Assembly (NCBI RefSeq): GCF_011082085.1
Contig: NZ_CP041063.1
Coordinates: 2,108,001 to 2,172,000, forward strand
Direction of reading: 5' to 3'
DNA length: 64,000 bases
Source of the DNA: Bacillus sp. Cs-700
Lineage (GTDB): Bacteria > Bacillota > Bacilli > Bacillales > Guptibacillaceae
The notes beneath the pieces were generated by a model. It was given only the letters and a program-made list of their open reading frames with translations, was not told the DNA's origin and did not search any database. The translations under genes were made by a program, and so were the position numbers. This document shows, piece by piece, positions 4,912 to 25,865 of this stretch; the stretch's first letter is position 1, and each line of letters begins with the position of its first letter.

Positions 4912-4957
4912 AAAAAAGCGTCCGGTGCAAGAACAATCTTGCACCGGACGCTTTTTT
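4912..4957. terminator. Bidirectional intrinsic terminator
   Basis: A perfect stem of AAGCGTCCGGTGCAAGA with its complement around an ACAA loop is flanked by A residues on the left and T residues on the right. It can stop the 48-aa gene on the plus strand and the RiPP-like operon ending at 4981 on the minus strand. Confidence 0.93.
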
Positions 4958-4980: not shown

Positions 4981-5979
4981 TTACTTCTTCAATTTCTGAA
5001 TTGGCATATGCTCTTTCATACCAGTATATAAACCAATCAAGCCATGTTTGGGAGAATCATAGCTTAAAAGATGGTAATCTACAAAGTTCACGTATTTCAT
5101 AGCTCCGGTTGTTTTGGTTGATATTGCGTAACGAATGGGTCGCTCATAAGGAAAACTCGTCACTTTTCTCATGAAAGGAAATTTATGATATAAGATTGAA
5201 AGCGTTCGAACGACCCTTCTCCAGGTCTTATGAAGCCTTGCGTCATGCCTCAATCGCAAAAAATCAATTGATTTGCCACTTATATCTATCATTTGCAACA
5301 AATCAACATAACATTTAAGTGAATCAAGATTATGACGCCACGCATGGAGGCACATTAAATAAAAAGTATGATAAGCAGAAAGTTCATAAACATAGTCATA
5401 TCCATCTAACGGAGTGGATTCCTCCCAGAACTCCGCAATCTCAAGGTTCGATGTATCCTCTTTCACAATATCCCAATGGATTTCAACACAGAGCGGAACC
5501 GGAGATCCTGGTAATTCTTTGCTTAAACAACAATGAAAGTGTCCAGGTAAGGATTCCTCTTCAAAAGAAAAACCCAATTTCTTAATACAGTCTGTTGCTT
5601 TATGAATGGCTGAACGATTGACCAGTAGATCGATATCAGATGTAGGCCGCGCACCAGATTCCCCGAAATACCGTTCTGCAAAAAATATCCCTTTTAAAGG
5701 AATGACTTCAATCCCCAACCTATCGAGTGCTCGCATAATCTCTTCTGTCTGATGCTTGATAAAGAGATTCTTAAAAAGAGTTTGAGTATGAGCTTCTTTT
5801 AAGCACTCTTGAAAACCAGAAGGTGTTTGTGTAATAAGGTCTCGGTCTTTCAAGAGCGAATAAAGTTGTGGTGCAATAGAAGGGAGTCGATCAAGTTTCA
5901 ACACTTTTTCATAATATCTCTCGTCTCCCGGAAAAGTAGCTTGATGATCATAAATAGAATGTAGAAGTTCAATCACCAA
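4981..5979 (-). CDS. Nucleotidyltransferase family protein of RiPP-like cluster 1
   Basis: About 332 aa, with the nucleotidyltransferase signature (LKGIFFAERYF, then GARPTSDIDLLV near residue 115), the NTP_transf_5-type fold known next to lasso peptide genes. The two Asp in SDIDLLV are the expected metal ligands. A conserved EIHWDIV and an AWRHN motif follow. It is the last gene of the operon and shares its type with 12615-13811 in the lasso operon. The frame opens with a GTG at 5991, but AAAGGAG overlaps it; a TTG at 5979 or GTG at 5976 is better spaced. Its substrate is unknown; nucleotidylation of the peptide or self-resistance are guesses. Confidence 0.82.
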   Translation of the reverse strand: MVIELLHSIYDHQATFPGDERYYEKVLKLDRLPSIAPQLYSLLKDRDLITQTPSGFQECLKEAHTQTLFKNLFIKHQTEEIMRALDRLGIEVIPLKGIFFAERYFGESGARPTSDIDLLVNRSAIHKATDCIKKLGFSFEEESLPGHFHCCLSKELPGSPVPLCVEIHWDIVKEDTSNLEIAEFWEESTPLDGYDYVYELSAYHTFYLMCLHAWRHNLDSLKCYVDLLQMIDISGKSIDFLRLRHDARLHKTWRRVVRTLSILYHKFPFMRKVTSFPYERPIRYAISTKTTGAMKYVNFVDYHLLSYDSPKHGLIGLYTGMKEHMPIQKLKK

Positions 5980-6002
5980 CGTAAAAATCACTCCTTTACG
6001 TG

Positions 6003-7808
6003 CTAAGAAATCGCTGTTTTTTCTTCAGAAAAGTGCTGACCATTTAGTTTTTGATAGAGAGGAGAGTTGCGAAGCAATTGCTCATGTGTTCCGCTTTGAA
6101 CGATTCTTCCTTCATCCATTACAATAATAAGGTCGGCATTTTGCACAGTAGAAAGACGATGCGCAATCACAATAGTTGTTTTTCCTTCCATTAATTGATC
6201 TAATGCTTCTTTTACGAAATGTTCCGTTTCGTTATCTAATGCTGAAGTGGCTTCATCCAACAAAAGAATGGGAGAATTTTTCAAAATAGCCCTGGCAATA
6301 GAAAGTCTTTGTTTCTGACCTCCCGACAGCTTAACGCCTCTCTCACCAATTTCTGTACGATAGCCATCAGGTAAGGAACAAATAAACTCATGAATACATG
6401 CATGGCGGGCCGCCCGGGACATTTCAATGTCTGATATTCCAGGGCGAGCCATCTGAAGGTTGTCTTGAATGGATCCTCCAAATAAAAACGTCTCCTGTGG
6501 TACGTGGGCAATCATACTTCTTAGTTCAGAGAGTGAACACCCACTTATCGTCTGTTCATCAATCCGAATCTCCCCACTTTGAGGTTGATAAAAACCCTGT
6601 AATAGATTAAATAAGGTTGTCTTACCAGCACCACTTGGTCCTACAAGTGCAACGACCTTTCCAGCTGGAATCGTAAGACTAAGATCTTGAAATATTCTTT
6701 TATGATCATCGTATTGAAACGTTATATTCTTAAATTGAATGGAACTGACTAAATCTTTTCGATGAGAAGATGGTCCTGACAGTTGATCGGTATCAACAGG
6801 TTGGTCTAGCACATTAAACACTCTCTCTAACGCTGAAATAGATCGTTGAAAACCAGCCCATTGCCCCGCAAGCCCTGTTAATGGATAAACGAGATGATTT
6901 ACGAGATTAATAAACATAATAAGAGCACCAACTGTCATAACAGAAGTTGAAACATAATAAGCACCTATACAAAGACTCAACATGAATGACAGCGAACTGA
7001 CCAATTGCCCACCAGCATAATACCATCCCTGGAGCTTTGCATTTTCTACTTCAAGTCCGTATAAATCTTCATTTTTCTTCTTATACTTGGAATAAATTGA
7101 TTTTTCGAGCGTAAATGCACGTATAACTTGAAAACCATGAAATGTTTCATTCTGTAGTGTGCTAATTTTGCCAACTAGATGATGAATCTTTCTACCATTC
7201 TTCCTTAACAAAAGACCAAACACTACCCCTCCAATAAGAGCAGCAGGAGCGATCAGGATACTAATGAGAGAAAGAGTCCAATTGAGTTGTACAAGAAAAA
7301 CAAATACTGCTAAGTAAATGAGTGGCAGTCGAATCAAATTAATAAGGTTATAGCCAATTACCCCATCAATGTTATGAACATCATTACTAAAGTGAGATAG
7401 AAGTTCGCCAGAATGGATATTAGAGGCACTTGATGGTGGTAACCTTAAAATATGATGAAACAAATGATTTTTCACGTCTCTTTTTACTGCATTAGTCGCC
7501 GCTGTTTCAAAGTAAATATCAAGGAACGAAGCGACAATACTTATTAGAATTAACCCAGCCCCCAGCGGAACAAGCCACCGTATTTTATCAAAATTACTTT
7601 GTATCGCAGCATCCGTTATGTTTCCAAAAAACCAGGCAAACGTAATGGTTAATGCAATATCCACTAGCATTAAACCAAACAGAATAAAATAAGCCCTTTT
7701 ATGTTTTAAAACAAAAGGTTTCAACATATGAACCGTGCGCACAAAATCTTTCATAGAAAAATATTGTTTAAGTACAATTTTCAACTTAATAAAATTGGAA
7801 GGGTTCAT
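6003..7808 (-). CDS. ABC transporter, fused permease/ATPase (peptide exporter, cluster 1)
   Basis: A half-size exporter of 601 aa with an N-terminal six-helix membrane domain and a C-terminal ATPase. Walker A GPSGAGKTT lies near residue 388, signature LSGGQKQR near 495 and Walker [13 protein letters not shown] after it. There is no C39 peptidase domain, so leader removal must come from another protein, plausibly the S24/S26 peptidase encoded just upstream. The ATG at 7808 is chosen over the upstream frame opening (7829) because TTTGGAG sits 8 bases before it. The likely role is export of the cluster 1 peptide. Confidence 0.92.
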   Translation of the reverse strand: MNPSNFIKLKIVLKQYFSMKDFVRTVHMLKPFVLKHKRAYFILFGLMLVDIALTITFAWFFGNITDAAIQSNFDKIRWLVPLGAGLILISIVASFLDIYFETAATNAVKRDVKNHLFHHILRLPPSSASNIHSGELLSHFSNDVHNIDGVIGYNLINLIRLPLIYLAVFVFLVQLNWTLSLISILIAPAALIGGVVFGLLLRKNGRKIHHLVGKISTLQNETFHGFQVIRAFTLEKSIYSKYKKKNEDLYGLEVENAKLQGWYYAGGQLVSSLSFMLSLCIGAYYVSTSVMTVGALIMFINLVNHLVYPLTGLAGQWAGFQRSISALERVFNVLDQPVDTDQLSGPSSHRKDLVSSIQFKNITFQYDDHKRIFQDLSLTIPAGKVVALVGPSGAGKTTLFNLLQGFYQPQSGEIRIDEQTISGCSLSELRSMIAHVPQETFLFGGSIQDNLQMARPGISDIEMSRAARHACIHEFICSLPDGYRTEIGERGVKLSGGQKQRLSIARAILKNSPILLLDEATSALDNETEHFVKEALDQLMEGKTTIVIAHRLSTVQNADLIIVMDEGRIVQSGTHEQLLRNSPLYQKLNGQHFSEEKTAIS

Positions 7809-7835
7809 CTTCTTCACTCCAAAAACCAAATAATT

Positions 7836-8282
7836 TCATCTATCCTGTTTGTTTAAATAGTTCCGTAGCAAACCTGAAAGAAATGGAAAAGATTGAATAA
7901 CCACTCCCCATAGACGAGAAGAAAAATGATCCATGTGCAGTGTGAATTTCTTTTTCTTAATGTAGACAAGTTTCCCCACAATAGCTGAATCAAGAACCGG
8001 ATCATCTGCGCCGAGATTGGTATCTCCTTTGAACGTATAATAGAGTGCTTTATTTTTACATTTGGTACCACAAAAACGATGCCCTACTAGCTGACCAGAC
8101 AAAGAATAGAAAAGGACGATATCACCTTTTTTAAGTAAAGATGGCTGACACTCAACAAACTGGCAAAGATCATCTTCCTGAATAAGAGGAAACATACTGT
8201 TTCCTTTCGCAGGAATTTCAATACTGCCATTCTCCTGGACGAGTTGCTTTAACACAGAAAATGTTTCCTGATTAACTAACAT
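7836..8282 (-). CDS. S24/S26 family peptidase (signal-peptidase-like), cluster 1
   Basis: 148 aa with the Ser/Lys dyad pattern of S26 peptidases: GNSMFPLI near residue 29 (catalytic Ser) and YYTFKGDTN near 90 (candidate Lys). LKKGDIVLFY and GHRF are usual surrounding motifs. Unlike housekeeping type I signal peptidase it has no N-terminal membrane anchor, though a hydrophobic stretch (WGVVIQSFPFLSGLL) near the C-terminus could bind the membrane. It occupies the operon position held by the B2 leader protease in the lasso cluster, so leader cleavage is the natural inference. It overlaps the PqqD-like gene by 11 bases. Confidence 0.85.
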   Translation of the reverse strand: MLVNQETFSVLKQLVQENGSIEIPAKGNSMFPLIQEDDLCQFVECQPSLLKKGDIVLFYSLSGQLVGHRFCGTKCKNKALYYTFKGDTNLGADDPVLDSAIVGKLVYIKKKKFTLHMDHFSSRLWGVVIQSFPFLSGLLRNYLNKQDR

Positions 8283-8538
8283 GATGGACTAATTCACACT
8301 GAACAAGATCCATAATAAACTCTTCAATTTCTTCCTCGTCAGGTTGTCCATCTTCTGGAAATTCCTCATGAATGGCCTTCAGGATTGAATCGATCGTTTG
8401 CTCTTCATCCAACAAACTCCAACAAAATCCACCTACCGCATTCAATTTCGTAACCGTGTAATTATCTGTATTCAAAACCACATATTCATCATCAAGTTTC
8501 GTAACATCATAACTTTTATTTTGCACGTACCGTTTCAT
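8272..8538 (-). CDS. PqqD-like peptide chaperone (RRE), cluster 1
   Basis: 88 aa with the PqqD fold pattern: VVLNTDNYTVTKLNAVGGFCWSLL, then an acidic helical half ending EEFIMDLVQCELV. In RiPP pathways such proteins bind the precursor leader and present it to the enzymes. It overlaps both neighbours (one base with the kinase gene, 11 bases with the peptidase gene), showing tight co-translation. The expected ligand is the YxxPxV leader of the 63-aa peptide at 9387-9578. Confidence 0.88.
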   Translation of the reverse strand: MKRYVQNKSYDVTKLDDEYVVLNTDNYTVTKLNAVGGFCWSLLDEEQTIDSILKAIHEEFPEDGQPDEEEIEEFIMDLVQCELVHHVS

Positions 8539-9320
8539 TAAGAAATCAACTCCCAGAAAGAATTATTCTTTTGAAAATGCAGGTTGTAGACTGGAACGGA
8601 CGACACGAGATGTTGTAATTTCTGAAGGATTCTTCTTGTTTCTTCCTCACTATGTTCCCAATAAAAAACTTTATCGATCAGGTGAAGGAATGCATCGGAT
8701 TTGGATATTCGATCTCTCCGATTTTGAAGAGATTGATGTAATAGTTGGATACTTCCTAATCGAGCTGAAGGTAGATTACACGAGTCTAATTCACTGTTAA
8801 ACGGTGAATTATATACGGTCACTTTCTGATCTGTGATCTTGATAATAGAAGCTTCATCAGAAAGGAGTTCTCTTGGATGAGATAATTTAGCAGCCGTTGA
8901 TTTTCCAGCTCCTGACTGGCCGGAGAAAATGTGGGCTGTCCCCTTTTCGATGACACAGGAGGAATGAACGAGTAGTCCCCAGTTATGATAGTTAATGAAA
9001 GAGCTGTAGAGATTCATAAGAGCATGCTTTAGGGCTAGTTCATCGTGCACAAATAGGGTAGCTTCTTTGTATCCTGAATCGACCTCGATTAAGTAGTCTG
9101 AGCGTTGGTATATTATTTTAGTAGGTTCTTTGGTGACTTGGACGTTGTAGTCGGTGAAGGGAACGCCGTAACTATCGATTAGTTGAATGATCATGTCAGG
9201 TTGGTTATTGCTATCGTTATGAGTATTGTTTATTGATAAAATCTTCATCGGTTTTGCTAAGTGATTCTTAATTTCAAAGACATGTTCACCGATTTTAATT
9301 AATGAATTCTGCATAAGCAA
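8538..9320 (-). CDS. HPr kinase-like protein, cluster 1
   Basis: 260 aa resembling the C-terminal kinase domain of HPr kinase. The P-loop SGQSGAGKST is near residue 131, followed by LLSDEASII, which holds the acidic metal-binding residues. In paeninodin-type lasso clusters a kinase of this type phosphorylates the C-terminal Ser of the precursor. Here the candidate substrate ends in Lys, so any target would be an internal Ser/Thr, or the protein may have another role. It is the first enzyme gene after the precursor, separated from it by a hairpin. Confidence 0.85.
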   Translation of the reverse strand: MLMQNSLIKIGEHVFEIKNHLAKPMKILSINNTHNDSNNQPDMIIQLIDSYGVPFTDYNVQVTKEPTKIIYQRSDYLIEVDSGYKEATLFVHDELALKHALMNLYSSFINYHNWGLLVHSSCVIEKGTAHIFSGQSGAGKSTAAKLSHPRELLSDEASIIKITDQKVTVYNSPFNSELDSCNLPSARLGSIQLLHQSLQNRRDRISKSDAFLHLIDKVFYWEHSEEETRRILQKLQHLVSSVPVYNLHFQKNNSFWELIS

Positions 9321-9351
9321 TCTCCTTCAATCAGTTACAATACTTTAGGGT

Positions 9352-9379
9352 GAGGTTAATAGCCAATGCTATTAACCTC
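9352..9379 (-). other. Intercistronic hairpin after the cluster 1 precursor gene
   Basis: A perfect 11-bp stem (GAGGTTAATAG / CTATTAACCTC) with a six-base loop lies between the precursor stop at 9387 and the kinase start at 9320. No T-run follows on the minus strand, so it is unlikely to be a full terminator. It could stabilise the precursor mRNA or thin out downstream transcription, raising precursor relative to enzymes. The lasso operon has a matching hairpin at 15572-15595. Confidence 0.75.
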
Positions 9380-9386
9380 TGTAGGT

Positions 9387-9578
9387 TTATTTGTGTTTGT
9401 GTGGCTTCTTTGGATTGTATGGATCGTGTGGATAATTTCCTCCATTACTGTTCCCATTATCTCCAGATACAGGACCATGTCCCCTATTCCAGCTTTGAGA
9501 CGTTTCAAATCTAATAGGCTGGTGCGTCATAACTTTTGGGCTTTCATACTTTGTAAACTGTTTTTGTTCTTCCTTCAT
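9387..9578 (-). CDS. Candidate RiPP precursor peptide, 63 aa (cluster 1)
   Basis: 63 aa from the ATG at 9578, which has AAGGGGA seven bases upstream. The N-terminal half (MKEEQKQFTKYESPKV) contains YxxPxV, close to the YxxPxL leader motif bound by lasso RRE proteins; PIRFETSQSWN follows. The C-terminal half is rich in Gly, Asn, Pro and His (GDNGNSNGGNYP, then HDPYNPKKPHKHK) and has no Cys. I do not recognise a characterised family. Precursor status is inferred from being the first, small gene ahead of a kinase, PqqD-like protein, peptidase and exporter, and from the hairpin after it. The longer frame from 9626 lacks a ribosome-binding site. Confidence 0.72.
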   Translation of the reverse strand: MKEEQKQFTKYESPKVMTHQPIRFETSQSWNRGHGPVSGDNGNSNGGNYPHDPYNPKKPHKHK

Positions 9579-9593
9579 ACCTTCATCCCCTTT

Positions 9594-9613
9594 TTGTTCA
9601 ATATAAAGAACAA
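9594..9613. promoter_or_regulatory. Second SinR-type half site in the cluster 1 leader
   Basis: TTGTTC and GAACAA are separated by eight bases; the minus strand contains an exact GTTCTTT, the SinR half site known from B. subtilis. It sits about 16 bases upstream of the precursor ATG. Confidence 0.4.
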
Positions 9614-9692
9614 CAAAATGCAACAATCCATTTCTTTAAGACAATCAAATGATGGAATATTATAGTAATATATCCCCCCTATGATTAATCTG

Positions 9693-9726
9693 ATTATACA
9701 ACACCTTCTGTTCTTTTTAAAGAACA
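9693..9726 (-). promoter_or_regulatory. Cluster 1 promoter with SinR-type operator
   Basis: The perfect inverted repeat TGTTCTTT-TT-AAAGAACA lies at 9709-9726. A TATAAT -10 box on the minus strand is at 9698-9693, ten bases downstream of the repeat, and the -35 region (TTTAAA, weak) falls inside the repeat. The half sites match the SinR consensus GTTCTYT known from B. subtilis. Occupancy would block polymerase, so the RiPP-like operon is predicted to be repressed by a SinR-family protein. The rest of the 9579-9765 gap is AT-rich without a gene. Confidence 0.7.
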
Positions 9727-9807: not shown

Positions 9808-10800
9808 CTATTTCCCACTAGTTAAAGTAAGGACATTAATTTCAGGGGTATTAAATAATCGAAAGTTAATAAACGAAATGGCATCGCTACTTCCTAGTCC
9901 AGCGCTAACATACTGTTTTGTATCTTCATACACCCAAAGCCCTTTCACTCGATCCCCAGGTGGTAAGAGCCCTCCATTTTCATACCACGGCTCAGGTACA
10001 AAAAATGCACCAATAAAAGGAATGCGAACTTGCCCACCATGATAATGTCCAGCAATGATGAGGTCATAATTTCTAAATTTATAGCTCTTCTGGTTCTTAA
10101 TATAATCTATTTTAGCATCAATGACCGGATAATGGTTAAGAGCAACCAACACGTCTGAATCACTATGTGACTCAACTTTACTGACTTCATCAGCTAGCTT
10201 CTTTTCATACTCACGATACTCTGGTAGGATTGCGTACTTAGGCCGGACTCTTCCATTGTAGTCCTGTGTCTGCGATTCAGGTCTCATGAGTGACAACTCA
10301 AAATCCACAAAAGAAAGTTTGGATTCACCCCGTTGAATGAATGCCACAGACTCGAGAAGGGTCAGGCCTCTCTTCTCCATACCAGAAACGAACTTGTTTT
10401 TTACAAGAACCCCTTCTGAATTCAACTCATAAATTTCTGGATCCGTATTACCAGGAGTAAAAAGTGAATTTTCTTTGTTATTAATCCCATCGAGTAACGT
10501 ATAAAAAGACTCATAATTCTTACTCTCTAATCCATTCAATAAATCCCCTGTAAAAACAATCGCATCATAATCGACTGCGTTAATAGCATCTAGAAGCTTC
10601 TCTTGATTGGTCCCAAACTCTTTTTCATGAAGATCAGAAATCTGAAGAATTTTAAAACCTTCAAACTCTTCGGGAAGATTTTCGATTACAATGTCTTCTT
10701 CCACTATTTTAACTCGGTTATTATCCCATACGGTGTAACCGATAATGAAAAAAGCTAGAATAAGCAACGCAACAACAAATTTCCATCCCCGCTTTTTCAA
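9808..10800 (-). CDS. Membrane-anchored calcineurin-like metallophosphoesterase
   Basis: 330 aa (YkuE-like). An N-terminal membrane anchor (FVVALLILAFFIIGY) places the catalytic domain outside the cytoplasm. Metal-binding motifs occur in order: ISDLH, TGDLLNG, GNTDPE, LNHYP and GHYHGGQ. The usual GNHE is GNTD here, so the residue that normally assists phosphate hydrolysis is changed. It is the last gene of the lasso operon, 30 bases after the exporter, and is followed by a terminator, so it is probably co-transcribed. A part in lasso maturation is not established; a housekeeping envelope role is possible. The start is TTG with a weak GGTGG upstream. Confidence 0.85.
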   Translation of the reverse strand: MKKRGWKFVVALLILAFFIIGYTVWDNNRVKIVEEDIVIENLPEEFEGFKILQISDLHEKEFGTNQEKLLDAINAVDYDAIVFTGDLLNGLESKNYESFYTLLDGINNKENSLFTPGNTDPEIYELNSEGVLVKNKFVSGMEKRGLTLLESVAFIQRGESKLSFVDFELSLMRPESQTQDYNGRVRPKYAILPEYREYEKKLADEVSKVESHSDSDVLVALNHYPVIDAKIDYIKNQKSYKFRNYDLIIAGHYHGGQVRIPFIGAFFVPEPWYENGGLLPPGDRVKGLWVYEDTKQYVSAGLGSSDAISFINFRLFNTPEINVLTLTSGK

Positions 10801-10830: not shown

Positions 10831-12618
10831 TTAGGTTGCCTTCACCTGATTTTGAAGGAGTTGGCTAAACACATTTCGTTTCTCATTTGCAAGTTGGTTA
10901 AATCCGCCTCTTTGGATGACTGCACCTTCATCAAGCACAACCACTTGATCAGCATTTCGAATCGTTGATAATCGATGTGCAATTACAATGATGGTCATTT
11001 TACCTTTGAGACGTTCAAGGGCTACTTGTATTTTAGATTCGTTCTCTGTGTCAAGAGCACTAGTGGCCTCGTCCAATACAAGGATTTTAGGCTTTCTAAG
11101 AATAGCACGTGCCAAGACAAGTCGCTGCCGTTCACCACCAGACAGCTTAATCCCCCTATCTCCTATTAAAGTATCAAGGCCATCTGGTAGCCTCTTCACA
11201 AATTCGGCTGCAGAAGAAAATTCTAGTGCCTCCCACAAGTCATCATCATTGCATTCAGGTGCAACCAATACAAGATTCTCCCGTATGGAGGTATTGAAAA
11301 GAAATGGATCCTGAGCAACATAACTAATGGAACGCCTGAGTGAGAGGAGATGTTCGCTTTTCAAAGGAATACCGTCAATAAGAACCTCACCTTTTTCTGG
11401 CTGGTTCAATCCCATCAACAAATCAATTAACGTGCTTTTTCCTGCTCCAGATCTCCCAACAAACGCGGTCATCTGATTCGAAGGAATCAAAAGGTTCACA
11501 TTTGAGAGAGCATATGAACCCTTCTGACTGTATCGGAAATATACATTTCGACATTCGATCTGATCGTTAAATTCTATTGACTTCATATTACTTTCTCTCA
11601 TATCAAATTCCCTTGCTTGATCACACTCATGCTGGAGAGCCTTAACAGCTTTGAATGAAGGAAGCGTGGTTGCAATTTGTTCCATAGAAGCTTGAATACC
11701 TGCAACCCGTGGCCAAAGTCTTGAGAAAATGACAATGATTAGTGTGAGTTGACCAACCTGAGCATTAAACAGGTTAATAGCCATATAAATAAAGACCGCA
11801 ATTAAAATAGCAGAAGCAGCTTTATAATATAATTGCGACATTGTTTTCAATTTCATATATTCAATTTGTTCATTCTGCATTTTCTCGGTTATACCGCTAA
11901 ACCAGCTCATTCTTGACTGTTCTAAGGTGTTACTTTTTACATCTTTAATGCCATTGATTTGGTCGGTGATGCCTGCCATGTAAATTCTAGCATGTTCGTA
12001 GTTGCGATTTCCAAGTGCAAGAGAACGTTTAAGAAATCTTCGGTTGAACAAGATGAGAACAAATCCACAAAGAATAACAAAACTAGTTATTGTCGGTGCT
12101 AAAAGGAAAGCAAGGACAATTTGGATAGAAGTAATTATGAGTGAGGATAAAAATTGGAGTAGTGAGTTTGTTCCAACACATGCTCTAGCCACTTCAGATA
12201 ATAAAATATTAATAAGATCAGATTTTCTTTTCGTAACAAAAAATCCCCAATTAGATTGAAGCACTCTTCTATATGTTTCTAACCTAATATGCTTCAGAAA
12301 ACCTTGATTAATAATTGTGTTTTGAAGAGTAATATGGCGTTGAACAATATGCTGACTAATAACAAGCACAATAAAGAATCCAAGTATTAGAGGTAACCCC
12401 AAGTTATTTGGAAGTACTTCAAGAAAACGAAAAAATGTTGAAAATGGTATGTCATCAACATCAATCTTAACAATCCCAGTCATACCGATTAATGGTATTA
12501 ACAAGAGAACCCCTACACCCTCAAGCAATCCAATTAACATCATAGCAATTAAATTAAAATAAAGTATTTTTCCTGAGAATAAATGAATTTGCTTTAAAAA
12601 ATAAATGATATTACTCAT
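10831..12618 (-). CDS. ABC transporter, fused permease/ATPase (lasso peptide exporter)
   Basis: 595 aa half-transporter: a membrane domain with about six helices, then an ATPase with Walker A GRSGAGKST near residue 384, signature LSGGERQR near 490 and Walker [13 protein letters not shown]. The ATG at 12618 overlaps the TGA of the nucleotidyltransferase gene (ATGA) and has AAAGGGGG eight bases upstream, so it replaces the longer frame opening at 12669. In lasso clusters this type of protein exports the mature peptide and gives immunity. Confidence 0.92.
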   Translation of the reverse strand: MSNIIYFLKQIHLFSGKILYFNLIAMMLIGLLEGVGVLLLIPLIGMTGIVKIDVDDIPFSTFFRFLEVLPNNLGLPLILGFFIVLVISQHIVQRHITLQNTIINQGFLKHIRLETYRRVLQSNWGFFVTKRKSDLINILLSEVARACVGTNSLLQFLSSLIITSIQIVLAFLLAPTITSFVILCGFVLILFNRRFLKRSLALGNRNYEHARIYMAGITDQINGIKDVKSNTLEQSRMSWFSGITEKMQNEQIEYMKLKTMSQLYYKAASAILIAVFIYMAINLFNAQVGQLTLIIVIFSRLWPRVAGIQASMEQIATTLPSFKAVKALQHECDQAREFDMRESNMKSIEFNDQIECRNVYFRYSQKGSYALSNVNLLIPSNQMTAFVGRSGAGKSTLIDLLMGLNQPEKGEVLIDGIPLKSEHLLSLRRSISYVAQDPFLFNTSIRENLVLVAPECNDDDLWEALEFSSAAEFVKRLPDGLDTLIGDRGIKLSGGERQRLVLARAILRKPKILVLDEATSALDTENESKIQVALERLKGKMTIIVIAHRLSTIRNADQVVVLDEGAVIQRGGFNQLANEKRNVFSQLLQNQVKAT

Positions 12619-13811
12619 ATTGCTGTCCCCCTTTGGGGTAATGATGACCTTACCTTTCTCCATCCCCATAAAAATGGCCGTAATGGGTAATAAAGAAAAT
12701 ATAAGAACTTTGGTAGTGGAAGTGTTGTTGTATCTTCGGGATATGGATGTAGTAAACTCAGTAAAAATAAAATCTTATGTCGCAAAGACATTAAAGAGTA
12801 CAAGTGTTTTTTATGATATTTAGCTATATATTCAGGAACAGGATCAGTGTGTAGATTCACCATGTTTTCATAATAAAATACCGCTTGGTTTGCAACTCTC
12901 TCTGAATGTGTTTTAAAATAATCAAACTCCTTGGGAATTTTTGCACCCAGAAGCTCTGAAGCCAAAAGAATACTTTGTTCACCTATTGTAACGTAATGAT
13001 ATTTTTTAAATAATTGATTTACTTTAACCCAATTAACTGGGCACTCTAAAAGCTTTTTAATATCAATTAACCACCTTAACCTTGACCAACCATGCCGCGC
13101 ACCATGAGAAGCAAGAAATAAAAACATATCTTCTTTTCCTAACAAATAGACAGGCGTAGCAGTTAAAGGACTTTTTCTTCTCCTTTCCCATAATTCTTCA
13201 AAACATGGTTCTTTGCCAGGGCCCGGATTCATTCTCCAATGAACTTCTACTTTTGTTTTTTTCTTTGAATGAAAAAAAGTCACATGGTGATGTCGCCATT
13301 TCCATTCACTTGATACCGTTTCAATATAATCATCTTTCTCATATCCTTCACTTACCAATAATTCTTCCATCCTAGATAAATCACTAATTGAAATAAGAAG
13401 ATCCAAATCACTTGAAGTTCGACATGACACATCACCATATAAATCTTGAGCAAGAACAGGTCCTTTTAAAAATATTGAATTGATGTTCTTTTTTAAGAAC
13501 AATTTACTAAGCCTTTCTAACTCTCCACTCAAATGGAGCATCAGAAACGTATTTCTCTTATATTCATGTGATAATTGATCAATTACAAAAGAAGGAATAA
13601 GATTTTCGCTTAAACCTTTTAACTTTATATATAAAAGTGGATAAATACGGTGATGTTTAGTTTGCTTTATAAATAAAGGCCAATCTATTTCTGATAATAG
13701 ATGAGAATCAGCCTTTAACTCGTCTTCTATTTTATCTGACTTCATTATTCTAAGTATTAACTTTAATTCCTTCGGGATGTTCTCCATAAAAAGATGATTA
13801 CGTTTCCCCAT
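12615..13811 (-). CDS. Nucleotidyltransferase family protein of the lasso operon
   Basis: 398 aa of the same family as 4981-5979. The signature reads FLKGPVLAQDLYGDVSCRTSSDLDLLI near residue 110-135, with both Asp ligands present, followed by KVEVHWRMNPG and a GARHGW motif. The family is common in paeninodin-type lasso clusters; its reaction is not established. It overlaps the exporter gene by four bases and lies 26 bases from the B2 protease gene. Confidence 0.85.
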   Translation of the reverse strand: MGKRNHLFMENIPKELKLILRIMKSDKIEDELKADSHLLSEIDWPLFIKQTKHHRIYPLLYIKLKGLSENLIPSFVIDQLSHEYKRNTFLMLHLSGELERLSKLFLKKNINSIFLKGPVLAQDLYGDVSCRTSSDLDLLISISDLSRMEELLVSEGYEKDDYIETVSSEWKWRHHHVTFFHSKKKTKVEVHWRMNPGPGKEPCFEELWERRRKSPLTATPVYLLGKEDMFLFLASHGARHGWSRLRWLIDIKKLLECPVNWVKVNQLFKKYHYVTIGEQSILLASELLGAKIPKEFDYFKTHSERVANQAVFYYENMVNLHTDPVPEYIAKYHKKHLYSLMSLRHKILFLLSLLHPYPEDTTTLPLPKFLYFLYYPLRPFLWGWRKVRSSLPQRGTAI

Positions 13812-13836
13812 AGCTTGTCCCTTCTATCTTATAAAT

Positions 13837-14277
13837 TTACACCCTTTTAGCAAACTTACTTACTACCGTAAATCTTTCCATTCCTTCTGCACCAGTAACA
13901 TAATAAGAACCACTGCGTAACCAGGCATGTGCAATTAATAATCCACATTCGTCTTTTGCTGTTCCAAGATACAAAGTGCTTTCAATTCCACGCTTTTCTA
14001 GCATTCTCATAGCTGCGATCGCTTTGACCAGGCATTGGCTTTCCCAAAAAGTATATCTGCTAACAATGTCTATTACTTGTGAGATCACTCGTAAAGTTTT
14101 TCGATGTAACTCATTCGTTTTATAGTCTGTCTCATCCATTTTTACTCCTAAAGTCGGTGCTACTTTTGAAAATGAAGCACTTTTATCCAATCTAGCTTTT
14201 CCTAAATGAAAATATGCCTCTAGTATTAGACTCTTTGTTTGTCTATTAAATGAGAGATATGTTATTAGCTTTCTCAT
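13837..14277 (-). CDS. Lasso peptide leader protease B2
   Basis: About 146 aa, transglutaminase-like cysteine protease that removes the leader peptide. The catalytic Cys is in WESQCLVKAIAA and the catalytic His in AHAWLRSG; the third residue would lie in the region after YYVTGAE. The motif order and short length match stand-alone B2 proteins of split lasso systems. The frame opens with a TTG at 14298; AAAGGA lies 12 bases before the ATG at 14277 and four before an in-frame GTG, so the start is uncertain. B1 is encoded just upstream. Confidence 0.9.
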   Translation of the reverse strand: MRKLITYLSFNRQTKSLILEAYFHLGKARLDKSASFSKVAPTLGVKMDETDYKTNELHRKTLRVISQVIDIVSRYTFWESQCLVKAIAAMRMLEKRGIESTLYLGTAKDECGLLIAHAWLRSGSYYVTGAEGMERFTVVSKFAKRV

Positions 14278-14321
14278 TAAATACACTATTCCTTTCAAGT
14301 AAAATAAGAAAAGGTAAATTG

Positions 14322-14612
14322 TTAATCTACCTTAACTAAGCCCTCATCAAGTAAATTCTCCAGAAAATATTGAACATCTGCTTCACATATATCTCGTCCT
14401 ACATTGAACTCTTCCATTAATTCCGTAATTAGTGCATCAAGTCTTATTGGAACGGATATTCGACTCCAGATTTCACCACCTACTTCACCTAAATTGTAAT
14501 ATTTACCATTTTCAATACTAAGGATTACTTTTTCCCCATCCATATCGCTTGCTATATTTCCCGGCACCTGACTAACTAATTGAGTATGATTAATCAATTT
14601 GTTTTTAAGCAT
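14322..14612 (-). CDS. Lasso peptide B1 protein (PqqD-like RRE)
   Basis: 96 aa with the PqqD pattern: DMDGEKVILSIENGKYYNLGEVGGEIW, then a helical C-terminus LITELMEEF...VQYFLENLLDEGLV. In split lasso systems this stand-alone RRE binds the leader (here WxxPxL) and delivers it to the B2 protease and cyclase. It overlaps the kinase gene by eight bases. It is clearly related in type to 8272-8538. Confidence 0.92.
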   Translation of the reverse strand: MLKNKLINHTQLVSQVPGNIASDMDGEKVILSIENGKYYNLGEVGGEIWSRISVPIRLDALITELMEEFNVGRDICEADVQYFLENLLDEGLVKVD

Positions 14613-15549
14613 GTAAAGACTCCTCCATTTTGATTTGATATAAAATTTGATCTGCCAAATCGCTGGCTGTGAAACAAGTAGTTGGTCGTCTAAGTTGATA
14701 TAGAGAAATATTAGTTGCTAATTCAGATATTACTTTGAAATGCCACTCCAACTTCTCAGATCTAGAAATCAGTTGATTGCGAAAGGTATGAGCAGAAAGG
14801 GTTTGTAACTTATTTAATTTAGTAATCTTCCCTATTTCTATTCCATCTTGTGCTGATTTAACTAATTCAAAAACACCACCAAGGGGTAACGGGGTATTAC
14901 AGAATCGATTACTTATTGGAACTGAAAATTTTTCTTCCCTATCAAAGAGTGGACGATATTGTTTTGAATTCATCCCAAATTCTCGCAAACTTTCAATCCA
15001 TAACTTTTGTTGAGGATAACTTGGAACAACAGTTGGTTTGCCTTCATTAGTAATTAACACTGGTATAATATCGTCGGTAAGTAATTTATAGCCCCTCTTC
15101 ATAAATTCGGAAGCCAATGTTGATTTGCCTGCTCCTGAGTACCCGACTATTGCATATGCTTTACCTTCTATTGCAATTGCACTTCCATGAAGAGGTAATA
15201 TTTCTCTTTGAATAAGTAAAACCCCCATACAAGTTCCTAATATATATAGTTTAATCTTATCTTCTTCAGTACTTTTGAAAGGGTAAACTAATATGGTATC
15301 ACCATCTTTAACGCAAAAAACAGCAGTGTCTTTCACCTGAAATAAAGTGTGATTCTTTTTAACTTTGAATTTTCCAACTTCCCCTTCTTCTTTCCAAACA
15401 GTGGATAAATCTTCTATTCTAATATTTATATCCTCTGAAAGCTGGTTATCTCTATTAATTAAATCACCTAATTCTTGAAAATAATAATCACTTCTTATGA
15501 TAAATCCAAAAGCCTTAAACAAATAAGTTTCTCTATCCATATAGGTCAC
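14605..15549 (-). CDS. HPr kinase-like lasso peptide kinase
   Basis: 314 aa. The P-loop GYSGAGKST lies near residue 135, then YKLLTDDIIPVL gives the acidic residues. Homologues in paeninodin-type clusters phosphorylate the side chain of the C-terminal Ser of the precursor. The precursor encoded just upstream ends in Ser, matching that activity. Gene order cyclase-precursor-kinase-B1-B2 is that of the known family. Confidence 0.9.
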   Translation of the reverse strand: MTYMDRETYLFKAFGFIIRSDYYFQELGDLINRDNQLSEDINIRIEDLSTVWKEEGEVGKFKVKKNHTLFQVKDTAVFCVKDGDTILVYPFKSTEEDKIKLYILGTCMGVLLIQREILPLHGSAIAIEGKAYAIVGYSGAGKSTLASEFMKRGYKLLTDDIIPVLITNEGKPTVVPSYPQQKLWIESLREFGMNSKQYRPLFDREEKFSVPISNRFCNTPLPLGGVFELVKSAQDGIEIGKITKLNKLQTLSAHTFRNQLISRSEKLEWHFKVISELATNISLYQLRRPTTCFTASDLADQILYQIKMEESLHA

Positions 15550-15571
15550 TCCAAATTTTTTTTACAAGAAA

Positions 15572-15595
15572 GCCCTTATATTAAGTTATAAGGGC
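15572..15595 (-). other. Intercistronic hairpin after the lasso precursor gene
   Basis: A perfect nine-bp stem (GCCCTTATA / TATAAGGGC) with a six-base loop sits between the precursor stop and the kinase start. No T-run follows. It is equivalent in position to the hairpin at 9352-9379 and may raise precursor mRNA over that of the downstream enzymes. Confidence 0.75.
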
Positions 15596-15612
15596 CGAGG
15601 CTAAATAAGTAT

Positions 15613-15738
15613 TTAACTATAATGGATTGATTCATCAACATCAGGCTGTACAGCATCTGGAGTTTTGAGACCAGGTCCGGCCATTGTCATTTCAACCTTA
15701 AGTACTTCTAGCTCAGGTTTCACCCATACTTTTTTCAT
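15613..15738 (-). CDS. Lasso peptide precursor, paeninodin family (41 aa)
   Basis: 41 aa. ATG at 15738 follows AAAGGAGGTGGAATA, an excellent ribosome-binding site, 14 bases after the cyclase stop. The leader (19 aa, MKKVWVKPELEVLKVEMTM) has the WxxPxL recognition motif and Thr at position -2. The core is 22 aa, begins AGPGLKTPDA and ends DESIHYS. Ala1 would form the macrolactam with Asp9, giving the nine-residue ring seen in paeninodin, and the terminal Ser22 is the predicted phosphorylation site. The core resembles paeninodin in its ring and tail yet differs at several positions. Confidence 0.95.
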   Translation of the reverse strand: MKKVWVKPELEVLKVEMTMAGPGLKTPDAVQPDVDESIHYS

Positions 15739-15752
15739 TATTCCACCTCCTT

Positions 15753-17681
15753 TCAGTTGTGTTTTTTAACAAATCGATAAAAAATGAGACTGCGCATTAA
15801 TATTCGAAAATTCATTTCATAAACGTATGACGGTTTAGGTTCATACTTCAAGGATTCTATTGCTTGTTTAATGATTTTAATATTCAGATATTCCGCCACA
15901 AGAGAATCCCTACACATGTTTTCTAATTCCTCAATGAACTTTCCCCAAACTGGCATCATGCGATGCAGACCGTCTGCACCTTGAATCCCTCTTGAACGTT
16001 CATTCAGTCTCACTTCATCTGGCAAGATATTTTTCATTGACCTCCTGATAAGCGACCTAGATAATCCACTATTAACAAATTGTTCTTCTGGAACTGATAA
16101 ACAAAACCTCGCAACTCTCAAATCATTTGTAGGATCACGATCCCATAAAGAATAACGTAGCGATAACTTCGATCCATAAGTACCTGTAATATTCCAATAA
16201 AACAAATCTTGAAATTGTTTCTTTTTAATATCGTAAACACTATCCTTTGAATTCCCAGTTAAATCAATTCCATAATCCCTTAGTTTCTCAAATGAATTTA
16301 ACTTATGTTCAAATTCAGGATTAATCATCTGTAGAATATGACTTGGTTGTTTCTTCAAGGAAGACATCGAAAATATTTTCCTTCTAACAATGGAGAATAT
16401 GCGAGATTTACTAACACCTATATTTTTACTGTAAAGATTTATTTCATTATACAGTCTCAATAGTTGCATTTTCCTTAATAAACCAGCCTGGTAATCCAGC
16501 ACAGGCCCCCATGAAATAGTCCAATTACCTCTTTGTCCATTTAACAGAACGCCTATGTTTTGCGAGTGTGCTTCCTCAAAAATCCCCTTTAACCAAAAAG
16601 TATTCTCAAAAAACTTATACGGCATCTCCAATACTTCTAGCCAATCATCTATATCAGTGAGAGGAGTTTTCCCTTCAAACTCTAGATAGTTATCTTGAAT
16701 GTTGCCTACATGATCGACAGTAGCTTTTATTAATGGCCTTTCATCAGCTAATCTATTTTTAGGTGTCCAATCAACAAAATCTTTCGCTGGTATATAGCTA
16801 AACGTATGTAGTTGTTTGTTTTCTCGTTTTAGTGAGTTTGCAGCAATCCCTACAACTGAACCAGAATCCAACCCCCCACTAAGATGTGCACCTACTTTAC
16901 GATGTGTACGAAGTCTTGATGTAACTGCACGTTCGAAAACTTCCTTTAAAGCTTCCTCGTATTCTTCATTTGAATTTAATTTTAGTTTTTCACCTTCTAG
17001 TAAAGTATTGTATCTTGTAAGCTTTAATTTACCCTTGATTAAAGAAATACTATGAGAAGGAGGCAGTTGATTTATATTTTCAAATACAGTAGAAGTGGTA
17101 TCAATGGATTCGAAATTCCACGGAATACTAAGAAAATCAGCCATCCATTCTTCTCTTAATTTACGCTCGATAAAAGGTAATTGAAATAATGGTTTATTAA
17201 TTGAACAAAAAGCGAACTTTTGATCACTGTAATAATAGTAGAGTGTTCTACTGCCTGAAAAATCTCTTGCCCCAAAAAGCTCCTGCTTCCTTTCATCCCA
17301 GATCATAAATGCAAAATCACCAATCAAGAACTTCGGGGTATCTTCACCCCATTTTATATAAGCTAGTAAAATTATTTGATTGTCAGTCATTGTTTTTCTA
17401 TCTCTATGATCTATTTGCAATATATCAAAAAGTGCATTTCTATTATCAATAATAGCATCCGACGTAATGACCAATTGTTTTTCATAATCATAAAAAGGTT
17501 GCTGCTCATTTATTGATTCTGGTGTGATCCATTGAGCATGACAACCGAGAAATACATTTCCCTTGAGCCAAAACTGGGAATCATCGCAAGGAAACTCTTT
17601 TAGAGAGCCTATTACATTATTAACTATGTCTAATGAGATTGGCTCTTTATTAAAGTGATAGACCCCTGTAATAGCACTCAT
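15753..17681 (-). CDS. Lasso peptide macrolactam synthetase (asparagine synthase-like)
   Basis: 642 aa. The N-terminal domain resembles class II glutamine amidotransferase but lacks the catalytic Cys2 (sequence MSAITG), as in lasso cyclases that do not use glutamine. The PP-loop SGGLDS near residue 267 binds ATP to adenylate the ring-forming Asp9 side chain before amide formation with Ala1. The start has GAGGAG eight bases upstream. It is the first gene of the operon; the precursor follows within 14 bases. Confidence 0.95.
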   Translation of the reverse strand: MSAITGVYHFNKEPISLDIVNNVIGSLKEFPCDDSQFWLKGNVFLGCHAQWITPESINEQQPFYDYEKQLVITSDAIIDNRNALFDILQIDHRDRKTMTDNQIILLAYIKWGEDTPKFLIGDFAFMIWDERKQELFGARDFSGSRTLYYYYSDQKFAFCSINKPLFQLPFIERKLREEWMADFLSIPWNFESIDTTSTVFENINQLPPSHSISLIKGKLKLTRYNTLLEGEKLKLNSNEEYEEALKEVFERAVTSRLRTHRKVGAHLSGGLDSGSVVGIAANSLKRENKQLHTFSYIPAKDFVDWTPKNRLADERPLIKATVDHVGNIQDNYLEFEGKTPLTDIDDWLEVLEMPYKFFENTFWLKGIFEEAHSQNIGVLLNGQRGNWTISWGPVLDYQAGLLRKMQLLRLYNEINLYSKNIGVSKSRIFSIVRRKIFSMSSLKKQPSHILQMINPEFEHKLNSFEKLRDYGIDLTGNSKDSVYDIKKKQFQDLFYWNITGTYGSKLSLRYSLWDRDPTNDLRVARFCLSVPEEQFVNSGLSRSLIRRSMKNILPDEVRLNERSRGIQGADGLHRMMPVWGKFIEELENMCRDSLVAEYLNIKIIKQAIESLKYEPKPSYVYEMNFRILMRSLIFYRFVKKHN

Positions 17682-17754
17682 TAAATATCTCCTCGATTCT
17701 ATATGTGGTGGGCAAAGTTCATTTGAATCTCCAGTAAATAAATCACATACTAAT

Positions 17755-17806
17755 TTAATAAAACATAGTATCGTCTTATATATAGAACGATACTATGTTT
17801 TATTAA
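17755..17806. promoter_or_regulatory. Perfect 20-bp inverted repeat ahead of the lasso operon
   Basis: Two 20-base arms (TTAATAAAACATAGTATCGT and its complement) flank a 12-base AT-rich loop. It lies 74 bases before the cyclase start, in a 257-base gap with no gene. It could fold as a leader hairpin or act as an operator. On the minus strand it is preceded by ATTCTTAATAAA, and a second hairpin at 41117-41168 has the same lead-in. No convincing promoter was identified here. Confidence 0.7.
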
Positions 17807-17938
17807 GAATTGCAATATTTATTTTACTTTTCCGAAAATCAAAGAATATGACCAAATATTGTAGGTAAGTACAAGCATTTTCACTCAATAAACATACATA
17901 ACTAATATAAGTGATCTTATTAAAATGGAGGAAAAAGA

Positions 17939-20231
17939 ATGTCTCAAAAATTCAAATCAAGAGATGCTTAAAAGCAGAACTGCCTCTTTTAGATATTGGC
18001 GAATTCGGATTTTGCACTGATACGAATGAACGTTTATTGGATCAGAGACTGGTAACCTTTTATTAGCTAACAATAATGATATAGATAGATTTCCTCACTA
18101 ACTACAGCGAATATTAACGATATCGATACTACTACTGTTTCACCTCAGAAGGAAACATTTTAGAATATCAGGATGGTAAATGGAGACCCAGTATAAATAC
18201 GAGTATTCCTTCTTCTATAATCAATCTTCCTATGTACTAGAATTAGAAAGATGGAACGTGAAAATGACGGCACTGACGCTGTGAACACAACTATCGGATT
18301 AATATGCCTTAGTGTGGGCTACTCAACAACATTATAAAGAAGTAACTACCTACTGGACTCTATTTAATTGATGAGAACAGTTCTATTCGTCCCAGAAGTT
18401 ATATGACACTAGATCTAAATGGTTCTACTCTGAAGGTTAGAAATAATGGATTAATAAAGTACGCCATAATTAAATTGATGAAAATCAACAGTATTCTAGA
18501 GTTACTAATGGACGGATTGAAGGTGATAAAGATAATCACGATTATACTACTATTCCGAGTACTCTGAATTCGGTTATGGAATCTCGGTTGGGGATGATAC
18601 TCCTCTAGAAGGAAGTAATGTAAGGTTTATTACTTTAGATAATCTAGAAGTGTTTAACTGCACTGGAGATGCTATTACATTGCTAGTGTGAATGGAACAT
18701 TTAAAACTATTAAAGGCGACGAACGAATCTGGTGGGATAGTCTAATTGACGGTACAGTATAATCAATTGAATAGGATTAGGTACAAATTAAATATTTCTA
18801 TGCAACAGGCTATAAAGAAATATGGTTATTTTGGACTTTATGGTGGAAGCTTTGGAGGACTAGGAAATGATATAAAACAGTATCTATGATGTAGTATTTT
18901 ATAGAAAGAATAATACTTTTTATCATCAAAAGTTGAGAATCAATTTTTTGACGAATAGAAGTTCCAATTGGTGCAGAATATGCAAAAGTAATTCTTCACC
19001 AAAAAGATACCCTCTTCAAGTGGTTCTACCATTTCTATCCGTGTTCCGCATATTCCTAAAAACATATTTATTGAAAAATGTAAATACATGATTGTAGAAG
19101 ACTAGGGATTAGTTTAACAGGAGGAAAACACGTCTTATCAAAGACTGTGAAATCCATCATATTAGTGGGACAGCTCCACAGAGTGGTATTGATATAGAAG
19201 ATGCTGGGACATAAACCAATATATTTTTATCGATAATAATCACTTCCATGATAATAGCGCACACGATATCATTGCTGTAAGTGGTAGACATTTGAATATT
19301 ACTAATAACAAACTATCAAAATCTTTAGTCATACAAAATGGCGCTAATAGAAGTATCATAAATGGGAACTTTTTCATTAAATCTGAAATTAATTTAAAAG
19401 GAGATGCAATTTTTTCCAACAACCACATATACAACGGTAGTGTAGGAGTTTCCGGAGCGAAATCAATTTTAGTAAGTGACTGTTTATTCTATAACAGTAA
19501 TCTAGGCTTCTCCAATACAAACCTTACTCATCTGCTAGAAAATTGTAGAATTATAGTTGATAATGACTATCAACAAGAGAGAATACCCCTTCTGTTTTAT
19601 CAATTAATGGTGCCCCACAATCGATATCAAATTGTAGTTTTGAAGGAGTAGGGTCAGAACCTCTTATATTGTACCTAGCGCTGCACAAACCGGATGGATA
19701 TTCGATAATACTTTGTTCAAAGATACAAACCATCCTCAAAATATCATTTTACGCTTACCTGGGGCAGTTATAAAAATTGTAAATTTATTAACACCGGTCG
19801 AATAGGGCTAGGTACTGGCAGTATTTCCGAAAATTATGAATTTAATAATGAATTTCAATGGCAAAATAATGTGTTTTTTATCTTACCCCAAACTCCTATT
19901 AATTTAAATATCTTAAATAGTGATTTTCGAGGGAGCTCTGATGGGGCATTCTCTATTAGAGGAAATTGGAAACTAATAAAGCTATCTAACAATATATTTG
20001 AATTAAAAACTCCAAATCAAATAATTACCTCATCTATTCATACAACGTCCTAGCAGAGACCGTTATTTTAGAAATAATGTTTTTAAATCAACATTGACAA
20101 TGAAGTTAGGTTTGGATGGAATAAATTCAAACATTGCAGTGTATAGAGATAATTTTCTGCAAAATATTCAACCTATATTTAATGAAAATGCAATCAGTTT
20201 AAATAATATTATAAATGGTATTCTTGATTAG
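17939..20231 (+). pseudogene. Right-handed beta-helix (pectate-lyase-fold) protein, multiply frameshifted
   Basis: ATG at 17939 follows GGAGG. Restoring single lost bases gives a continuous protein: MSQKFKSRDA then LKAELPLLDIGEFGFCTD, a region WNVKNDGTDAVNTTI typical of Pectate_lyase_3 proteins, and then long beta-helix coils (GDINQYIFIDNNHFHDNS, LNITNNKLSKSLVIQNG). The N-terminal AELPLLDIGEFGFCTDTNE resembles phage tail-spike and surface glycan-acting proteins. Breaks were noted near 17969, 18034, 18099, 18145, 18262, 18302 and 18346; each needs one added base. It is the only plus-strand gene in this part and sits between the lasso and eps regions. It may act on the exopolysaccharide. Decay or sequencing error cannot be told apart from sequence alone. 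Confidence 0.75.
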
Positions 20232-20274
20232 TTAATTTTTGAGTAATATATCCTACTATTATATATTTTTATCT

Positions 20275-20315
20275 GAGCTATTACCTCAATTTTTATCCTA
20301 ATGGAGTAATAGTTC
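20275..20315. terminator. Possible terminator between the beta-helix gene and the eps 3' end
   Basis: GAGCTATTAC pairs with GTAATAGTTC (one G-T pair) around a 20-base loop in the gap between two convergent genes. The flanking T-runs are weak, so the assignment is tentative. Confidence 0.35.
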
Positions 20316-20401
20316 AGTTTATTAAAAAAATACACTATTAATACAAAGTGAACATAATTAAGTATTATATTAGATATTATTCATATTATTCAGTGCAGTA
20401 T

Positions 20402-21472
20402 TCATTTAAATATTGAAAAGCTTTTCTGACTCTTTCTTAATAGGATAATATCCAATTTATTATTAAATCCTTGTTGAATTGTTGTAAGTCATATTGTAAC
20501 TGTATATTTTCCATTTCAACTATGAGTTGATCCAATTTAATATCTTTAAGTACATTGTGTCTTTTTCGTTGTAAATCACTGGTATTATACCTGTATCTAA
20601 TACTAATGACAAAATAGTCCCATGAAATCTCGCAGCAATAAATAACTCACAAGTAGCTATTACTTCCAAGGTCCTTCCAATATCCCCTTGATAATTGTGA
20701 ATTAAAACTTTCTCTAATTTTTTTTGAGATAGCCGTTCTACTATTGTATTAATAGTTTTCAATCCCCTTCTCTACTGCAAAATGACATTAAGCAACATTC
20801 ATAACCAAGGTTTTGAAATACTTCTATTGATTTTATTGTACTTCTAATATAGTCCTCATAATATTTTGATAACCTTTCTTTTTCCTCACATCAATAATAG
20901 AAAATCCAACCAATTTTTTTGTAGGCTTAGTTTTATATTTTTCTGCACTTAATTGAAAAACTATATCTGGTGCATACTAACTTGAGGTAGATGTGAAAAC
21001 AAGTTGTAAGAATAATAATCTCTAAAACATACATACTACACAACTCAAAAAAAGCTAGATATTCATTATAAAACGACACAGTACTATCGGTCCGAAATTT
21101 GCTCCAAGTACATAAATTGGTTTACTTAATCTGTCGAATTCCCTAGTAAACTCATTCTCTTGTTATATAAAGCTCTATGATAAGAGTTATTTTCCATAAA
21201 AATTGACCCACCAATAAAAACCAGTGCGTCGAAACTTTTCGCAGTCTTCCTATCTTTTTGGATATCATTACTTAATCGACTTGATATTTTATCAAAGTTG
21301 AAAATTGTCTTCTATTGATATTATTATAATTAGCTATAAATTCATCATAATCACTATTATAATAATTAAAGTTATGTTGCTTGTTTTAAATTTGTTTGCA
21401 AGTTATCTAAAAATAGATCATCGCTAAATTTGATGCTAAGTACATATCAACTAACAGTTTCTTCAATTTCAT
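20402..21472 (-). pseudogene. Polysaccharide pyruvyl transferase family protein, frameshifted
   Basis: Reading across frames restores a ~350-aa protein: MKLKKLLVDMYLASN at the start, ALVFIGGSIFMENNSYHRA, LGANFGPY, and near the C-terminus the family hallmark ELFIAARFHGTILSLVL followed by PVIYNEKDTMYLK. The family transfers pyruvate onto sugars of exopolysaccharides and teichoic acids. The best intact piece is 20520-20762. It is the last gene of the long minus-strand polysaccharide run. All breaks I followed are consistent with missing single bases. Confidence 0.8.
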
Positions 21473-21518
21473 CACCAAGCATTCTATTTTATTTATAAAG
21501 AGAAATCACAAAAAATTA

Positions 21519-22552: not shown

Positions 22553-22728
22553 AGCTTCACCCTTTTCAACTAATTGATCGCTTTCATCTAATTTCAATAA
22601 AATCTAACTACCAAGGTTAAATCGCTACACTTATACCTCAATGTTCAATAGTACTTAATCTACATGTTGACTAGCCGGTGGCAGTTATCCTCATCTGAAC
22701 CAGTCTTGCTGTTATTTTCCTATTCATG

Positions 22729-25847: not shown

Positions 25848-25865
25848 AGGATTAACTCACTTTCC

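Follow-up and report, generated by a model that had tools for sequence, protein, structure and literature searches.

The minus-strand operon between positions 9578 and 4981 of a 64,000-nt stretch of the Bacillus sp. Cs-700 genome (4.3 Mb in one contig; the analysed stretch is hereafter the window) is very probably, at an estimated 93%, a cassette for linear polyphosphorylated peptides (LPP) of the type lppA-K-B-S-D-N. LPP are a family of ribosomally synthesized and post-translationally modified peptides (RiPPs) of Bacillota described by Popov et al. (Nat Commun, May 2026; PMC13381572). Their gene set comprises a SpI-like peptidase, a discrete RiPP recognition element (RRE), an HprK-like kinase, an NTP transferase and an MsbA-like exporter, and the published cluster, from Paenibacillus alginolyticus DSM5050, is arranged lppA-K-B-S-D-N (PMC13381572); this gene set and order are those of the window operon. 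Among the papers listed by literature searches, no other dealt with the same gene set. The original prediction, made from the DNA alone, of a separate cyclase-free RiPP operon was right. Its view of the operon as a candidate for a new system has been overtaken by PMC13381572, and a known RiPP class with the same gene set, which it had named as grounds for giving up that view, exists in LPP. The class being already published, the window operon is an added LPP member and not a new class. This assignment is based on gene set, motifs, catalytic residues, predicted folds and phylogeny.

All six genes that had been proposed are open and lie on the minus strand; the extent first given, 4981 to 9726, includes them, and its upper end also takes in a 50-aa open reading frame (ORF) upstream of the precursor. 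The LppA-type precursor gene (9578, ATG, to 9387, stop) encodes 63 aa, with the leader motif in the same register as in 44 other precursors. Its leader (9578-9501) has the form Y11xxP14xV16..HQPIRFET26 with a predicted cut after T26, and the 37 aa that follow (9500-9390; SQSWNRGHG...HKHK, SQSWNRGHGPVSGDNGNSNGGNYPHDPYNPKKPHKHK) form the predicted product core. Ser29 (codon 9492..9494), or core Ser3, is equivalent in position to LppA S3 and thus the predicted polyphosphorylation site. Next come genes for an LppK-type HprK-like kinase (8538..9320; an alternative ATG at 9314, giving 258 aa, has the better ribosome site), an LppB-type discrete RRE of the PqqD family (8272..8538; PF05402, 2e-13), an LppS-type SipW-like leader peptidase (7836..8282), an LppD-type MsbA-like ABC exporter (6003..7829; ABC_membrane, 7.4e-44) and an LppN-type NTP_transf_5 protein (4981..5991; PF14907, 1.9e-35). 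A hairpin resembling a terminator, its stem 20 bp long, lies 3′ of the operon (4913..4956), one of 5 such sites overall vs 3.7 expected from shuffles. The promoter scan gave 18 sites vs 18.0 in shuffles, so that a promoter-like site at 9721-9693 is uninformative by itself.

In P. alginolyticus, LppK adds several phosphates to core Ser3, a site that was mapped, and LppS cleaves after T-1 (FET) in dependence on LppB, the RRE; the crystal structure of LppB with the leader was solved (PDB 9x8z), changing LppB Asn33 nearly abolished leader binding, and LppS S29, H68 and D93 are positions mutated in the same study (PMC13381572). The window precursor YESPKVMTHQPIRFETSQS fits YxxPxVLxHQxIxFETxxS at all fixed positions except L, where it has M, and carries the sequence FETSQS with the predicted cleavage site after FET; its sole sequence match in the PDB was the LppA leader of 9x8z, which is weak (E 0.21). 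The window RRE matches LppB (9x8z) at 5.5e-22 vs 0.005 for the lasso RRE PbaB1, whereas the RRE of the adjoining lasso cluster matches PbaB1 at 2.2e-24 and left LppB unmatched at 0.001. A tree of 67 RREs places the 45 LPP members, LppB and the window included, on one side of a branch with support 98/96, values derived from few columns and a bootstrap that had not settled. Residue 33 is Asn in the window, as in all 44 LPP RREs scored, vs Gly in 20/20 lasso RREs. Similarly, the window peptidase has Ser29, His68 and Asp93, plus Phe42, at the published numbers, and all four are kept in 44/44 loci; an S26 peptidase in the role of B2, as originally proposed, is borne out in a SipW-like form. Core position 3 is Ser in 39 of 45 precursors and the sole core Ser/Thr in five. 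The presence of the leader motif in 45/45 is not an independent test, because the precursors were pre-selected with a similar pattern, P.[VILMA].{6,8}F.[TAS]; those of L069 and L079 were entered by hand. The tree and precursor sets leave out near copies (L014, L048, L015, L016, L018, L019), cassette-free loci (L059-L061) and the contig-end locus L013.

The kinase has only weak P-loop and PEPCK matches in Pfam and matches NCBIfam HprK_rel_A (TIGR04352) at 1e-7, with 31.4 bits vs a cut-off of 200. Its predicted model has a PEPCK/HprK fold (HprK/P is listed by Foldseek and is not among the 50 VIA-align matches listed), and the P-loop residues within 134-142 as well as D155/E156 are invariant in 17 sequences. 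The peptidase matches Peptidase_S24 weakly (0.025) and signal peptidase I, TIGR02228, at 6.7e-12, with 45.6 bits just below the cut-off of 51.85. In the LppN-type protein, G101, D119, D121 and E170, which we take to be pol-beta-type active-site residues, are invariant in 18 sequences; the best fold matches of its model (pLDDT 89) are ANT(2'')-Ia and CCA-adding enzymes, both weak (E 0.002 to 0.005), and its sequence profile found one match in the PDB, at chance level only.

Several points weigh against the assignment to LPP. The S26 peptidase and the kinase fall below the cut-offs of general models, and the window RRE has Glu at position 70, which is Asp in 33, Glu in 7 and another residue in 4 of 44 loci; Asp70 is described as highly conserved in LPP, not universal (PMC13381572). 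In six of the 45 precursors core position 3 is not Ser, and 14 of 44 cassettes arrange their genes differently; therefore the wider family is not uniform. In the published work, deleting LppN made no difference in the heterologous host, and no product was detected in the native host (PMC13381572). For the Cs-700 operon, the product is a prediction from its genes.

The kinase search (E <= 1e-3) gave a match in 45 of 397 genomes of the order, 38 of them strong, one (G012) cut by a contig end and six weak. The surroundings of the kinases of 39 genomes, some second or distant kinases and six genome_contigs matches yielded 49 loci including the window, and the enzyme set of five types is present in 44 of these, the window among them; left out are three loci with only distant kinases (L059-L061), the contig-end locus (L013) and L014, which repeats L009. 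Because the set recurs to this extent, the operon is not a chance assembly. The window order is found in 30 of the 44, and in the others the nucleotidyltransferase comes first (8), the kinase stands behind the exporter (3), a second kinase is present (1) or the genes are otherwise rearranged (2). One locus has its exporter split in two frames (L058) and another (L008, in the relative G007) a kinase gene with one internal stop (8847-9620), its other four enzyme genes looking open. A small gene with the leader motif occurs at 43 of 44 loci (38/39 of the tree set plus five fetched later); in the exception, L065, no precursor was found and the exporter is broken, being present only as fragments. 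The expectation that a small YxxPxV gene always comes first was thus largely upheld for presence and not for position, as the precursor leads the operon and immediately precedes the kinase in the 30 loci with the window order and lies elsewhere in the others; the Tyr is found in 25 of 45 precursors. A named relative is Pseudalkalibacillus (now Guptibacillus) spartinae, whose kinase is 75% identical to that of the window. Carriage by a mobile element was considered and dropped, as the precursor had no match in plasmids (E 1) or phages (E 0.1; viral_contigs not scanned) and the kinase none in plasmids at 1e-5.

L015-L019 (named Paenibacillus, plus one Bacillus record) are variant cassettes that have the nucleotidyltransferase first, an exporter of ~753 aa and a core with two Cys; the nearest model for the L015 exporter is a cyanophycin-associated ABC protein, below cut-off. 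L077 (7612-7118, minus strand) and L080 (8070-7654, minus strand) carry a second, long precursor beside the LPP cassette, in which an LPP-type leader, PKILDHQTISFETTIS, is joined to a domain of the CFI-box-CTERM kind (NF041770, 50.5 bits vs a cut-off of 40 in L077), and a weaker remnant lies near 7688 of L079. A search for this long precursor matched 16 of 397 genomes at 1e-3, with leader and domain covered only in G166 and G260 (98-99% identical) and the domain part alone in the others. Published LPP precursors reach up to 200 aa (PMC13381572).

By its match to LPP, the operon should make a 37-residue linear core, cut after FET and polyphosphorylated on core Ser3. In the proposed pathway, the LppB-type RRE would hold the YxxPxV leader, the HprK-like kinase would phosphorylate core Ser3 (QS*W) several times over, the SipW-like peptidase would cleave after FET while the precursor is RRE-bound, and the ABC protein would export the linear core. 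The NTP_transf_5 protein probably decorates the phosphate with a sugar or nucleotide, perhaps supplied by the neighbouring polysaccharide locus. Among the modifying chemistries considered at the outset, phosphorylation is thus the predicted one, and the option of a class not yet described falls away with the publication of LPP. We infer the functionality of the window copy, the export, the role of LppN, the final structure and the biological role.

We defined core types A-H by patterns after inspection of the sequences and placed them on a joined tree of the five enzymes, in which 34 of the 39 loci have an assigned core type. The common types are scattered, with 8 changes on the tree vs 8.1 for shuffled labels (type B), 6 vs 7.4 (type A) and 4 vs 4.8 (type C). 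The rare types F, G and H cluster, and so do all types taken together (15 changes, 21.9 when shuffled, as low in 0 of 200). The enzymes of the window (type A) and of L009 (type B) are 81% identical. In three near-identical pairs with different cores, the DNA differs over a segment that begins before or within the precursor and runs into the kinase gene, and is mostly 80-95% identical thereafter; what has been replaced is the precursor together with roughly the first 48-86 codons of the kinase (the latter at 9057..9314 in the window, minus strand). After this DNA comparison, five more close relatives were added and 29 within-genus pairs compared, of which 17 (6 with the same and 11 with different core types) have a kinase remainder at least 78% identical. 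Kinase codons 1-48 are 60-97% identical in same-core vs 47-63% in different-core pairs, with a shuffled chance level of 49%. Codons 87 onwards are 79-89% vs 77-91% identical, and the RREs 80-96% vs 76-89%. When cores were shuffled within three genera, the observed link was reached in 2 of 1152 draws for kinase codons 1-48 and 2 for 49-86, vs 14 for the kinase remainder, 17 for the ABC exporter, 18 for the RRE, 25 for the peptidase and 219 for the nucleotidyltransferase, counts from non-independent pairs and a test designed after the DNA comparison. Within genera, core similarity also goes along with similarity of the RRE, the exporter, the peptidase and the kinase remainder, since close relatives have both in common; the kinase signal consequently rests on the contrast between same-core and different-core pairs, which was sought only after the DNA comparison.

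Two explanations for this pattern were weighed. The precursor and the N-terminal part of the kinase may form an exchangeable specificity unit in which that kinase part reads the core, so that cassettes would change their product by swapping this block and keep the rest, and diversifying selection would act on LPP cores, which would come in a few shared types; such a swap could be likened to strains changing their surface type. We advance this tentatively and consider it rather less than an even bet. Under plain linkage, to which we give slightly better than even odds, recombination replaces the precursor and ends in a conserved part of the next gene, and the kinase N-terminus merely hitchhikes. 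This is consistent with the block being contiguous and the kinase being the next gene, and with the same-core pair of the window and L008, in which the precursors are similar and the identity dips at the kinase start as well. Across genera (29 loci), moreover, the link between kinase N-terminus and core type is weak (p 0.0085 for residues 1-20, 0.02 for 21-40), and p is lower at residues 241-260 (0.001) and similar at 181-200 (0.0095), all among 36 windows without correction. Linkage does not readily account for same-core pairs keeping more similar kinase N-termini than different-core pairs within genera. From these within-genus contrasts and the weak cross-genus link, it is well supported that precursor and kinase start are exchanged together within genera, whereas the reading of the core by the kinase N-terminal part, which may occur, is put forward as a hypothesis. 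Neither "recombin" nor "N-terminal domain" appears in the main text of PMC13381572, and we did not find the scattered core types and the joint exchange in that text.

A paeninodin-type lasso cluster with cyclase, WxxP precursor, kinase, RRE, B2, nucleotidyltransferase and exporter adjoins the operon (10831..17681, minus strand, by domain matches) and raises two further readings. As originally stated, the two clusters share four protein types (kinase, RRE, exporter, nucleotidyltransferase), and cyclase (15753-17681) and B2 protease (13837-14298) are not among the six operon genes and sit in the lasso cluster instead. This likeness and adjacency would fit a decayed lasso cluster that has lost cyclase and B2, a reading we rejected as extremely unlikely on the 44-locus recurrence, the conserved peptidase residues and the RRE tree; moreover, the six genes are open and a lasso cluster with a complete gene set stands alongside. 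A lasso peptide ring needs an acid at core position 7-9, and there is none in the window core or in 35 of 45 precursors, one being present in 10. The operon could also lack a product of its own and serve as an accessory module for further modification or export of the neighbouring lasso peptide. A cyclase (E <= 1e-40) is indeed present in 31 of 39 LPP genomes (the 38 with a strong kinase match plus G012; the six weak ones not counted) vs 59 of 358 others (Fisher odds ratio 19.6, p 1.5e-15, kinship not corrected), at most 12 kb from the kinase in 21, at most 40 kb in 6 more (27 in all), far off in 2 and on another contig in 2. The expected absence of a cyclase is thus true of the cassettes and not of their surroundings. 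However, eight of the 39 genomes are without such a cyclase, the cassette has its own conserved precursor, and the published LPP and lasso pair discriminates between its own precursors (PMC13381572), which makes an accessory role quite improbable; the LPP cassette with its own product remains our reading.

Within the lasso cluster, the precursor (15738-15613, minus strand) has the WxxP motif that paeninodin-type leaders carry (PMC13381572). Its RRE (14322-14612, minus strand) aligns with Gly42 kept and Asp at the position of PbaB1 Q79, which is Gln in 13 of 20 lasso RREs. Asp there is half of a double change that was found to relax leader choice (PMC13381572), and the window lasso RRE has it naturally, which bears on the published discrimination rule. 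The sole gene between the LPP operon and the lasso exporter encodes a calcineurin-like phosphoesterase (9808-10800, minus strand; PF00149, 4e-12), and both flanking clusters encode kinases for their own peptides. A polysaccharide locus extends over ~29.5-42.8 kb of the window. The 11.8 kb before it (17700-29500) are low in GC with no ORF > 119 aa; some short ORFs there resemble, by eye, pieces of glycosyltransferase or transporter genes (two ORFs tested had no Pfam match), and therefore part of the polysaccharide locus may have decayed.

These loci add members to a RiPP family of which one cluster was expressed (PMC13381572), and in them a core that gets exchanged is combined with a constant leader, RRE and peptidase. 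If the kinase N-terminal part does read the core, it would offer an easy way into phosphopeptide engineering and would hint that whatever the product encounters differs from one relative to the next.

Among known systems, the HPr-rel-A (TIGR04352/04353) and SynChlorMet (TIGR04248/04249) kinase/PqqD systems are matched weakly by the window kinase and PqqD, with scores far under cut-off (for PqqD against TIGR04353, 13.6 bits vs 35; for the kinase, as given above), which places the operon outside HPr-rel-A. The paeninodin and pseudomycoidin lasso clusters are alike in HprK-like kinase, nucleotidyltransferase and serine (poly)phosphorylation, but have their own cyclase and B2 protease and phosphorylate a C-terminal serine (PMC9266682); RRE and exporter types of the LPP operon are found also in the window's lasso cluster. 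The genus name Pseudalkalibacillus does not occur in the main text of PMC13381572 (the newer name Guptibacillus was not searched). There, a paeninodin-type lasso cluster and polysaccharide genes adjoin other LPP cassettes too. The published P. alginolyticus cluster agrees with the window operon in gene set, order, leader motif, RRE Asn33, peptidase triad, predicted cut site, phosphorylated serine (predicted in the window) and these neighbours, and differs in its core of 45 aa starting AQSNWK, as compared to the 37 aa of the window, and in the window's RRE Glu70.

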